Below, piece by piece: positions 9,004 through 11,822 of a stretch of DNA of 64,000 bases. Made by a program: the position numbers and the translations under genes. The DNA is from Acidobacteriaceae bacterium. GTDB lineage: Bacteria > Acidobacteriota > Terriglobia > Bryobacterales > Bryobacteraceae. Where the stretch lies: positions 1-64,000 of the forward strand of contig JAFAYL010000017.1 of assembly GCA_019240405.1 (NCBI GenBank), written 5' to 3'. The notes beneath the pieces were generated by a model, which was given only the letters and a program-made list of their open reading frames with translations, was not told the origin of the DNA and made no database searches. Within the stretch, counting starts at the first letter, position 1, and the number at the start of each line of letters is the position of its first letter.

Positions 9004-9513
9004 TTAGAGCAAGCTTTCGACGTAATGCGTCATATCGTCGCTCAGCCAATCTTCGGCCTGAGCAAATTTTCGCATTACGCGGCCGTTCTTGATGATGTAG
9101 GTTTCTGGAAATTGAAACGTTCCATACTCCGCGCTCACATCGCCATTCGGATCACGTGCTGTTTCAAACGAAACCGGAATTCGCTCCAGAAATCGCTTAT
9201 ACTTCTGCTCATTCTTGTCCACGCTGATCGCCACAACCACAACACCCGAATTCGCGAAACGCCTCTGAAACTCGTTCAGCGACGGAATCTCCTGCACACA
9301 CGGCGCGCACCACGTCGCCCAAAAGTTCAAAACGAGAATTTTTCCGCCAAACGAATTCGCGCTCACAATCCTGCCCTGATCGGTTCGAATCGAGAACTCC
9401 GGCGCGGCGCCGCCCTCTTTGGCAGAGCGGTCCTGCAGGCTCCAGCCAATCACGGCAATGAAACACACGATCAACGCTACAAGCAGGGCGCGCAAGGCAT
9501 TGTTGGTGTTCAT
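9004..9513 (-). CDS. membrane-anchored TlpA-like thiol-disulfide oxidoreductase
   Basis: A 169-residue thioredoxin-fold protein. Residues about 7-25 are a hydrophobic N-terminal anchor (ALRALLVALIVCFIAVIG), placing the rest outside the cytoplasm. The active site is WATWCAPC, followed by the conserved EIPSLNEF helix, and a cis-Pro context is seen in QFPETYII. The family reduces periplasmic disulfides, often for cytochrome c maturation or metal-site assembly. glcD follows 11 bases downstream on the same strand, so the two are probably co-transcribed, though a functional link is not evident. Confidence 0.9.
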   Translation of the reverse strand: MNTNNALRALLVALIVCFIAVIGWSLQDRSAKEGGAAPEFSIRTDQGRIVSANSFGGKILVLNFWATWCAPCVQEIPSLNEFQRRFANSGVVVVAISVDKNEQKYKRFLERIPVSFETARDPNGDVSAEYGTFQFPETYIIKNGRVMRKFAQAEDWLSDDMTHYVESLL

Positions 9514-9614: not shown

Positions 9615-10040
9615 ATGTTTGTGACCCGTAAGGCAGAATTCTCCGCCTCTCATGTCTGCCGCCTCGCGCATTTAAGCGACCAAGAGAATCAGGAAATTTT
9701 TGGACCTGCGGCTAACCCGAACGGGCACGGCCACAATTATGTTGTCGAAGTAACGCTCGAGGGTGATCCCCATCCCATCACGGGCATGGTGATTGATCTT
9801 AAGGAGCTCAAGCAGATTCTCGAGGACGAAATCGTAACCCCGATGGACCATCGCTTCCTCAACTATGAAGTCGCGCCCTTCGACAAAACTGTTCCCACGG
9901 CCGAGAACATTGCGCGGGAGATCTGGTTTCGTCTCGAGAAGCGCTTCCGAAACTCGTCCCCAAGCCTGCGAAAGGTTCGTCTGTTTGAGACCCCTGATCT
10001 CTATGTGGACGTTGCCGGCGAGGATTTCGCCTCATCATGA
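9615..10040 (+). CDS. 6-pyruvoyl-tetrahydropterin synthase/QueD family protein A, catalytic Cys replaced
   Basis: A 141-residue T-fold protein of the PTPS/6-carboxytetrahydropterin synthase family, which acts on the FolE product dihydroneopterin triphosphate. The zinc ligands His13 (FSASH), His38 and His40 (NGHGHNY) are present, as are the triad pair Asp78-His79 (PMDHRFLN) and the pterin-anchoring Glu125 (LFETPD). The residue aligned with the catalytic Cys of mammalian PTPS (Cys42 in KCNNPNGHGH) is Ala32 here (PAANPNGHGH). A Cys15 sits near the zinc site but not at that position. It overlaps the next gene, a paralogue, by four bases (ATGA). Alone it may be inactive or use another mechanism. 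Confidence 0.9.
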   Translation: MFVTRKAEFSASHVCRLAHLSDQENQEIFGPAANPNGHGHNYVVEVTLEGDPHPITGMVIDLKELKQILEDEIVTPMDHRFLNYEVAPFDKTVPTAENIAREIWFRLEKRFRNSSPSLRKVRLFETPDLYVDVAGEDFASS

Positions 10041-10516
10041 AGCTCACACGCCGGTATCACTTTTCCGCCTCGCACAGGTTGCACTCGCCCGAGCTCACCA
10101 AGGCTGAAAACACGCGACTCTACGGAAAATGCAATTACCCCTTCGGCCACGGCCACGATTATGTCCTTGAAGTAACGGTAGGCGGAGATGCGGATTCCAA
10201 TACAGGTTTACTTCTTCCGATCGCCAAACTAGATCGGCTGGTTCGAGAAAAGGTTCTGCAGCTCATTGCACACCGCAACCTCAACCTCGATGTGCCGCAG
10301 TTTGCGCATCTGATCCCCACCACCGAAAATCTGGCTTTAGTTATCGCCGATCTACTTGAGGAGAATTGGCCCGCCTATCTGGGCCAAAGCCCGGTTCGGC
10401 TACATCGAATCCACATTCAAGAGACGGACCGGAACGGCTTTGAGCTTCTACTGGATTCACGGCCGCGTACTCCTGCACGACATCGCCAAACTGAAAGTGT
10501 GGCACTCAATGCATAA
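10037..10516 (+). CDS. 6-pyruvoyl-tetrahydropterin synthase/QueD family protein B, triad Asp replaced
   Basis: A 159-residue paralogue of the preceding protein that aligns to it without gaps through the core. It has the zinc ligands His13, His38 and His40, the catalytic Cys32 ([11 protein letters not shown], very like mammalian PTPS) and a pterin-anchoring Glu129 (IQETDRNGF). The triad Asp is Ala78 ([14 protein letters not shown], against LDHKNLDLDVPYF in the mammalian enzyme), while His79 is kept. It therefore lacks exactly the triad member that paralogue A keeps and keeps the one A lacks. Its end overlaps the folE start by eight bases, so the three genes are translationally linked. Confidence 0.9.
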
Positions 10517-11135
10517 AGCCAAATTAGACAAGAAAAACAACCGCGTCGTAGATATTCAATCCAAGGCCTCACCCGCGCTTGCCCCTCATATCCGCGAAAT
10601 GCTTGCCGCACTCGGCGAGGACCCAGAGCGTCAAGGTCTGCTCCGCACCCCCGAGCGCAGCGAGCAAGCCTTTCGATACCTGACCAGCGGATACGCGACC
10701 GACGTTCAGCAGATCGTGAACGGCGCGCTATTTGATGTGAAGTACGACGAGGTCGTCATCGTTCGGGATATTGAATTCTTCAGCCTCTGCGAGCATCATC
10801 TTCTTCCCTTCTTCGGGAAAATGCACGTGGCTTATTTGCCGGATCAAAAAGTTATCGGCTTAAGCAAGATTCCCCGCATTGTGGACGTATTCGCCCGGCG
10901 TCTCCAGATCCAGGAGCGCCTCACGCAGCAAATCGCCGAAACCATCCAGAATCTGGTGAAACCCCAGGGCGTCGCCGTGATCTGCGAAGCGCGCCACTTC
11001 TGCATGATGATGCGCGGCGTTGAGAAGCAGCATTCCGGTGCAATTACGAGCGCGATGTTAGGCGCATTCCGGGAGAACAAAGAGACTCGCAACGAGCTCC
11101 TCTCTCTCGTCGGACAGCGCTCGACGGCCATCTAA
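10509..11135 (+). CDS. folE: GTP cyclohydrolase I
   Basis: A 208-residue FolE1 enzyme converting GTP to 7,8-dihydroneopterin triphosphate, the entry to folate, queuosine and tetrahydrobiopterin. The zinc and catalytic residues are in [20 protein letters not shown] and in the later [30 protein letters not shown] and the C-terminal TSAMLGAFR are family hallmarks. The ATG at 10509 is used because longer in-frame extensions lie inside the upstream gene and do not resemble FolE. It is co-directional and overlapping with two PTPS/QueD-like genes, so its product is very likely handed to them. Confidence 0.96.
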
Positions 11136-11178: not shown

Positions 11179-11556
11179 ATGAGCGGCCAATACCGGCTTT
11201 TTGAAGCGGGTCCGGATCCGTTTGGCCGAATGTGGAAAGTGCAATTTCGATGGCTACAAACCGGCATCTCAATCCGACACGCAGATACCGTGGATGTTAA
11301 ATTTTTCATCGAACCCCAGGACGGGTCTACCGAAGAGAAAGTGATCGCTTTACCGCATCCTATGCTGCTTGAGATCTCGGCCAGGCAGGGTTGGAAACTG
11401 ACCGATCCTATGTGCATAAGAATCGCGGCGCTACACGTGAACCACATGATCGAAACGTCCGAAGATATGGATAAAACGCTCGTCACCCTCTCCGCGGAAG
11501 AGCTGGGCGCTTATGCCGAGCAATTGAACCATGTAACAGTTCAGCAGCGCCGGTGA
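11179..11556 (+). CDS. conserved hypothetical protein, function not recognised
   Basis: A 125-residue soluble protein with no signal peptide or membrane segment. The N-terminal half looks like beta strands (WKVQFRWLQTGISIRHADTVDVKFFI) and the C-terminal half helical. I recognise no motif. It lies 43 bases after folE and 35 bases before the LysW-like gene, in an uninterrupted plus-strand run, so it probably shares their transcript. No clear Shine-Dalgarno precedes the ATG. Confidence 0.7.
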   Translation: MSGQYRLFEAGPDPFGRMWKVQFRWLQTGISIRHADTVDVKFFIEPQDGSTEEKVIALPHPMLLEISARQGWKLTDPMCIRIAALHVNHMIETSEDMDKTLVTLSAEELGAYAEQLNHVTVQQRR

Positions 11557-11591
11557 TCCATTCGGTCGTAGCGCCAAAAGGAAGGAGTGCT

Positions 11592-11822
11592 ATGGTCACT
11601 TGTCCAAAATGTGAAGCCGTCATCGACGTCGAAGAGGAAGAACTGGACGAAGGCGACGTGCTTTCGTGCGATGAATGTGGAGCTTCTTTGACCGTCGCCA
11701 GCCTCAATCCGGTTGAGCTGGAACTCGAAGACGAAGAAGACGACGACGACGAAGACTTCGACTACGACGAAGACGAAGACGAGGAAGAAGAGGAGGAGGA
11801 AGAGGAAGAAGAGTGGCATTGA
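11592..11822 (+). CDS. LysW-like zinc-ribbon protein with polyacidic C-terminal tail
   Basis: A 76-residue protein. The first roughly 42 residues (VTCPKCEAVIDV, then DVLSCDECGASLTV, then SLNPVELEL) closely resemble the amino-group carrier LysW, with two CxxC pairs for zinc. The remainder is almost only Asp and Glu. LysW ends in EDWGE, with the terminal Glu serving as the attachment point for alpha-aminoadipate; this protein ends in EEWH, so carrier function of the usual type is doubtful. The ATG at 11592 has a strong GGAAGGAG Shine-Dalgarno; an ATG 39 bases upstream does not. No lysX, lysZ or lysY homologue is nearby. The tail overlaps the start of the next gene by 10 bases. It could be a metal chaperone or an electrostatic adaptor. 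Confidence 0.8.
   Translation: MVTCPKCEAVIDVEEEELDEGDVLSCDECGASLTVASLNPVELELEDEEDDDDEDFDYDEDEDEEEEEEEEEEEWH

Follow-up and report, generated by a model that had tools for sequence, protein, structure and literature searches.

Two adjacent genes, here called A and B, encode proteins of the 6-pyruvoyl-tetrahydropterin synthase (PTPS) family that probably work together as one asymmetric heteromeric PTPS-type enzyme with a shared working site; the complex, the shared site and the product are what we infer from comparing the two proteins across species. The genes lie in the window analyzed here, which is the whole stretch of 64,000 nucleotides (the genome it comes from is the host genome below). 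The PTPS family is well known, and the comparative evidence argues strongly for a heteromer. No heteromeric PTPS with a shared site was found in the open-licence PMC literature, which was searched in part.

Genes A and B and their genomic neighborhood

Gene A (positions 9615 to 10040) and gene B (10037 to 10516) lie on the forward strand and encode proteins of 141 and 159 amino acids, identified from the list of open reading frames (ORFs), Pfam matches and alignment to the rat and human PTPS. They are followed on the same strand by folE, encoding GTP cyclohydrolase I (10509 to 11135, with its ATG at 10509), recognized by Pfam and NCBIfam matches. The initial annotation had described two overlapping PTPS-family genes followed by folE at these positions, and this description holds. 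The end of B and the start of folE share 8 bases, and A and B share the 4 bases ATGA (10037 to 10040, forward strand, read directly from the sequence), which contain the stop codon of A (TGA) and the start codon of B (ATG) and suggest translational coupling of the two genes. This folE is the sole one found in the host genome, which is 95.8% complete. The product of FolE is dihydroneopterin triphosphate, the substrate of PTPS enzymes.

Immediately upstream of A, an ORF on the reverse strand (9004 to 9513) encodes a divergent ResA/TlpA-like thiol-disulfide oxidoreductase according to Pfam and NCBIfam. Similar genes occur near A in relatives, but the cluster that holds them is mixed with other ORFs: in an unfiltered clustering of ORFs from 80 named loci, the first cluster, present in 74 loci, contains the divergent thioredoxin-like gene together with other ORFs. 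An oxidase-like gene is found farther out in 29 of the 80 loci, and no additional pterin gene was recognized near A-B-folE in this clustering. On the other side, the small protein encoded at 11179 to 11556 (forward strand) matches nothing in Pfam or NCBIfam; its relatives form a cluster present in 9 of the 80 loci, in eight of the nine on the strand of A. The ORF at 11553 to 11822 (forward strand) also encodes a small protein; it has two CxxC pairs, judged by eye to resemble a zinc ribbon, and carries a long tail made up almost entirely of Asp and Glu.

Both A and B match the Pfam PTPS family (PF01242, cut-off 22.4 bits), with 117.6 bits (4e-34) for A and 94 bits (8.6e-27) for B, and neither reaches the cut-off of the NCBIfam QueD model (TIGR03367, 89.25 bits; A 67.9, B 51.6). 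The closest solved structures by sequence are the human and rat PTPS for A and B alike. The AlphaFold model of A (mean pLDDT 93.6) has rat PTPS 1gtq as its best fold match in the PDB (TMq 0.88), and that of B (mean pLDDT 90.2) has human PTPS 3i2b (TMq 0.75). The spacing CxxxxxHGH, which marks the PTPS-II, biopterin type (PMC5041015, available in part), is present in B in all 154 species pairs surveyed below and in A in 28 of them, the host A not being among these. The PTPS-III motif ExxHGH is absent from both host proteins, which read PNGHGH (A) and PFGHGH (B) with no Glu three residues before HGH.

Alignment to the rat and human PTPS locates the catalytic triad, Cys42, Asp88 and His89 in rat numbering. 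In host A, codon 32 (gcg, 9708 to 9710) places Ala at the position of Cys42, and codons 78 and 79 (9846 to 9851) encode the Asp-His pair, which is kept in all 154 A proteins of the species survey. In host B, codon 32 (tgc, 10130 to 10132) encodes the equivalent of Cys42, kept in all 154 B proteins, and codons 78 and 79 (10268 to 10273) read Ala-His in place of Asp-His; all of these codons are on the forward strand. The zinc ligands His13, His38 and His40 are present in both proteins, as is the equivalent of the pterin-binding Glu133 (Glu125 in A). Thus the residues named in the initial annotation, both those lost and those retained, are confirmed by the alignment. Neither host protein contains a complete Cys-Asp-His triad, and only A and B together supply all three residues.

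Conservation and loss of triad residues across species

We assembled adjacent A-B pairs from class-, family- and order-level searches, with one genome per species; the genomes counted are samples of those on record. The searches gave 157 pairs, from which three were removed (B masked by N in G332, B cut by a contig end in G319, A cut in G411), leaving 154. The pair counts also leave out G412, in which B has an internal deletion, G024, G123, G163 and G265, whose coordinates fell on another PTPS copy, and G242, a 2-base placeholder. Three genomes from outside the class, each with a single related gene, served as outgroups (G056, G222 and G278). Below, f1 denotes the host's own family and f89 its sister family; many of the best named matches to the A-B locus are titled Bryobacterales or Bryobacteraceae, an association by which f1 is placed there. 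A lies upstream of B on the same strand in 154 of 154 pairs, which were collected by adjacency, and the motif columns that were counted contain no alignment gap.

The triad residues of the two proteins have had very different fates. Cys is missing from A in 126 of 154 pairs, comprising all pairs from f1 (107), f89 (17), f88 (1) and f80 (1), and is kept in all 28 pairs from f2, f82, f83, f84 and f87. The residue found in its place is Ala (62), Glu (32), Ser (12), Asp (8), Asn (6) or Gly (6). Asp and/or His are missing from B in 67 pairs (57 of 107 in f1, 1 of 17 in f89, 3 of 7 in f82, 5 of 5 in f84 and 1 of 8 in f2), with 25 different residue pairs in place of Asp-His; the B of KBS 96 reads Ala-Asn there. 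In terms of pair states, nothing is lost in 19 pairs, only the Cys of A in 68, only the Asp-His of B in 9, and both in 58, so that single-loss states are common. In those 58 pairs neither protein has a full triad, yet a joint triad can be composed in every one of the 154, always from the Cys of B and the Asp-His of A; the reverse combination is available in 19. The zinc histidines of A are also retained (His23 in 153, His48 and His50 in 154 of 154 pairs, rat numbering), as is its Glu133 equivalent (152 of 154).

These counts allow the proposal of the initial annotation to be refined. Its view that the pattern exceeds chance is upheld: A is never without Asp-His and B never without Cys in the 154 pairs, and the other two features change repeatedly. 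The "exact complementarity" it described goes too far, since Ala in A combined with Ala-His in B occurs in 1 of 154 pairs, the host genome itself. We therefore rejected the idea that Ala and Ala-His represent a co-evolved state.

The named loci, a set that shares contigs with the 154 pairs and overlaps them, give the same result, with the Cys of B and the Asp-His of A present in 79 of 79 complete pairs from the 80 loci. The order A-B-folE is found in 76 of these 80 loci of related Acidobacteriota; in three others the contig ends at B or soon after, and in the remaining one (L173, the same place as in G412) B is internally deleted. The deletion (L173 6418 to 6732, corresponding to contig C4, L308 of G412) falls between the HGHN and NLN motifs, and A and folE look intact. 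As for partners occurring alone, no full-length lone B was found in the 12 genomes where A, B or both were not found whole (in G363 a fragment of B stands at the start of a contig), or in the searches of the class sample. Against this, one of the 12, G412, carries a full-length A beside its internally deleted B; this case could reflect a faulty assembly or else count against co-retention.

In order to trace these changes we built a joint FastTree tree without the three trait columns (rat 42, 88 and 89). On this tree A and B are parted by a single label change, and therefore one duplication suffices for all pairs. The Asp-His state changes at least 28 times in B (31 on A-only or B-only trees) and not at all in A. 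For the Cys state of A, the joint tree and the A tree each require one change and the B tree two. The identity of the residue at rat position 42 switches at least 33 times in A, against none in B; many forks are weakly supported, and all these counts combine loss with regain. The loss of Cys from A is old and common to the host's order, and the losses of Asp-His from B are many and scattered, nine of them among the 28 pairs in which A still has its Cys. The losses are accordingly not "reciprocal" as had been supposed. In one outgroup from a different class of the phylum (G056; L103, about 1497 to 2491), a lone PTPS gene has all three triad residues and a folE-like ORF comes after it, an arrangement that possibly represents the pre-duplication state.

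Overall, the evolutionary rate of B is about 1.6 times that of A (tree length 66.7 vs 41.7; median changes per column 37 vs 19.5). Change counts in B are therefore inflated in general, and for this reason we also compared columns individually. Sites conserved only in B (rat 17, 24, 41, 42, 52, 134 and 137) have 0 to 3 changes in B and 11 to 59 in A, and sites conserved only in A (rat 14, 51, 56, 68, 71, 72, 88, 89, 90, 95, 99, 104, 114 and 130) have 0 to 3 changes in A and 12 to 58 in B. The ratio of changes in B to those in A is higher in the region 68 to 114, around Asp-His, than elsewhere (p = 7e-5, or 3e-4 without positions 42, 88 and 89), this region having been picked after viewing the site lists and neighboring columns being non-independent. 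Four of the A-only sites (14, 51, 56 and 130) fall outside it. The conserved sites appear largely complementary between A and B, which is a guide to a spatial split and not a proof of it.

A proposed shared active site and alternative explanations

In the rat PTPS structure, the zinc ligands, Cys42 and Glu133 are reportedly on one subunit and His89 on its neighbor. When this geometry is combined with the set of residues that is always kept, namely the zinc ligands, Cys and Glu of B and the Asp-His of A, exactly one type of interface is left, that of B facing A. The title of Burgisser et al. 1995 likewise describes the PTPS active site as an intersubunit catalytic triad, and PTPS is reported to assemble as a dimer of trimers, in which each of the six zinc sites lies between neighboring monomers (PMC7546909, available in part).

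We propose that an ancestral gene with a full triad was duplicated in tandem before the families carrying A-B diversified, and that its descendants would be two subunits of one 6-pyruvoyl-tetrahydropterin-synthase-type enzyme acting on dihydroneopterin triphosphate from the adjacent FolE. At the productive site, B would contribute zinc, Cys and the pterin-binding Glu, and a neighboring A would contribute the Asp-His relay. Such a division would make the Cys of A and the Asp-His of B dispensable: the former would have disappeared in one or two events at the root of the host's order (Bryobacterales, assigned by association) or close to it, and B would have lost Asp and/or His many times. The B-to-A interface would keep working and the other interfaces would be freed to decay. 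The earlier suggestion that A and B rebuild a joint site is thus supported by all 154 pairs and by the largely complementary conservation; the complex itself is what we infer.

The PTPS triad is possibly shared between neighbors within one trimer. If the neighbor is in the same trimer, there would be at most one B-to-A interface per ring of three, and hence two working sites in a hexamer; with the neighbor in the opposite trimer, a hexamer of A3 and B3 would have three working sites. The earlier estimate of one full site per interface is too generous if the triad is shared within a trimer, where a ring allows at most one B-to-A interface. The heteromer was also called possibly obligate, which need not hold for every species. 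B has a full triad by itself in 87 of the 154 pairs and A by itself in 28, so homomers could work in those species, and strict dependence on A may apply in only part of the group. In the nine pairs where the relay of B is gone and A is complete, A could act alone.

The retained zinc ligands of A are not predicted by a simple model in which the second site is dead. Together with the retained Glu133 equivalent they indicate that the pocket of A itself is still under selection; these residues may be structural, or the pocket may still bind or process something. A tentative elaboration of the heteromer is that it has two unlike sites: a B-type site (zinc and Cys of B with Asp-His of A) might start the reaction, and the Cys-less zinc/Glu site of A might bind or process an intermediate, perhaps with channelling from FolE (the folE gene overlaps B). 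If this elaboration is true, a T-fold enzyme would have split one active site into two specialized ones after duplication.

It is also conceivable, and on balance rather unlikely, that A and B form separate homomers with distinct specialized functions, B being a Cys/zinc enzyme for which the relay is unneeded in some lineages and A a zinc enzyme that works without Cys on a different pterin intermediate. Such an enzyme would be expected to keep its zinc ligands, its Glu133 equivalent and Asp-His, as 152 to 154 of the 154 A proteins do although 126 of them are without Cys, and Glu, which takes the place of Cys in 32 of them, is a reported alternative catalytic residue in PTPS-III enzymes. However, the drift at this position among Ala, Glu, Ser, Asp, Asn and Gly is unlike the behavior of a new catalytic residue, and the Asp-His of B gives way to 25 residue pairs. 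Separate homomers also leave the complementary split of conserved sites unexplained and give no reason for the adjacency, common strand and fixed order of A and B in every pair or for the failure to find a full-length lone B.

A less probable alternative makes B the sole enzyme and A a pseudoenzyme bound to it, serving stability or regulation, with a structural role for the Asp-His of A. The widespread absence of the catalytic Cys from A (126 of 154) agrees with it, and there are known cases of a catalytically dead paralogue activating its partner, for example in trypanosomatid deoxyhypusine synthase (PMC3663545, available in part). But in the 67 pairs (of 154) whose B is without Asp, His or both, B would need the relay from A, which keeps exactly those residues; at this point the pseudoenzyme account shades into the shared-site heteromer.

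The remaining question of substance is the pathway that the heteromer would serve. Besides A and B, the host genome carries a third PTPS-family gene, located on another contig (G000 contig C15, L001 1495 to 1857, reverse strand) and of the PTPS-I/III type with the motif CENVHGHN. FolK is present, dihydroneopterin aldolase (FolB) gave no match in the host genome, and the C15 gene is a candidate for queuosine synthesis plus the FolB step. The third PTPS copies of own-family genomes have the hybrid motif CExxHGH in 10 of the 12 that were read. This hybrid type is reported to serve both folate and queuosine (PMC5041015, available in part), and such a role fits the third gene. In the class sample, one genome (G320; L307, contig C2) is the only FolB carrier among nine own-family genomes, and its third PTPS is without Glu (CARLHGH), as if FolB and the hybrid enzyme substitute for each other. 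Another genome (G344; L315, contig C43), with no FolB match and a third PTPS also without Glu (CANVHGH), does not fit such a swap.

That A-B itself stands in for FolB in folate synthesis is very unlikely. The distribution in the class sample of 61 genomes at first favors it, FolB being missing from 38 of the 39 genomes that carry A-B and found in all 8 genomes sampled from each of f81 and f85, neither of which has A-B; the FolK of the host genome is in line with it as well, and in f86 all three genomes have neither FolB nor A-B. In f89, however, FolB and A-B occur together in the same 10 of 10 genomes, the third PTPS gene of own-family genomes mostly has the motif of the reported folate/queuosine type, and G320, which has FolB, has a third copy lacking Glu, with the misfit of G344, which has neither FolB nor that Glu. 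The spacing in B is, moreover, that of the biopterin type. This spacing, the coexistence of FolB and A-B in f89 and the hybrid third PTPS together point to 6-pyruvoyl-tetrahydropterin, or a tetrahydropterin resembling it, as the most likely product of A-B. The host genome encodes one biopterin-type hydroxylase. Such hydroxylases were found in 7 of the 30 genomes searched, the host included, and phenylalanine hydroxylase was accordingly rejected as a general consumer of the A-B product.

An account in which redundant copies simply decayed, unconnected in function, has next to nothing to recommend it. A third PTPS-family gene does exist in the host genome, but 153 to 154 of the 154 pairs retain the Cys of B, the Asp-His of A and the zinc ligands, and the block with folE is conserved.

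If the shared-site heteromer is real, more than 150 species provide a natural series leading from an enzyme with an intersubunit site to an asymmetric heteromer, with the intermediate stages (both complete, A lost, B lost, both lost) still visible. Such a series would open to direct test the order in which the steps toward an obligate heteromer occurred, and the annotation of such genes as enzymes that act alone would need correcting.

Relation to known systems

By sequence and predicted fold, A and B are closest to PTPS-II (rat 1b66/1gtq, human 3i2b), with which they share the zinc histidines in both proteins, the CxxxxxHGH spacing in B and the Asp-His motif in A. The known PTPS-II enzyme is a hexamer of identical monomers (PMC7546909, available in part), whereas A and B are each without part of the triad and are predicted to form a heteromer. 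PTPS-I (QueD) and the PTPS-I/III hybrids belong to the same superfamily, and the host has one of the latter on contig C15 (see above); A and B differ from QueD in falling below its cut-off and in having two extra residues between Cys and HGH. The PTPS-III enzymes, the FolB bypass of the Plasmodium type, resemble A in that the catalytic Cys is replaced, by Glu in some of the A proteins (32 of 154). However, PTPS-III is defined by ExxHGH (PMC5041015, available in part), and the substitution in A lies six residues before HGH, is mostly Ala, and is accompanied by a Cys-bearing partner encoded next door.

The closest analogue in terms of how the A-B enzyme is predicted to work is the deoxyhypusine synthase of trypanosomatids, in which an impaired and an inactive subunit combine into an active heterotetramer (PMC3663545, available in part). 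That is a different enzyme catalyzing a different reaction, and its complex was shown biochemically, whereas the A-B pair is known from comparison of sequences.
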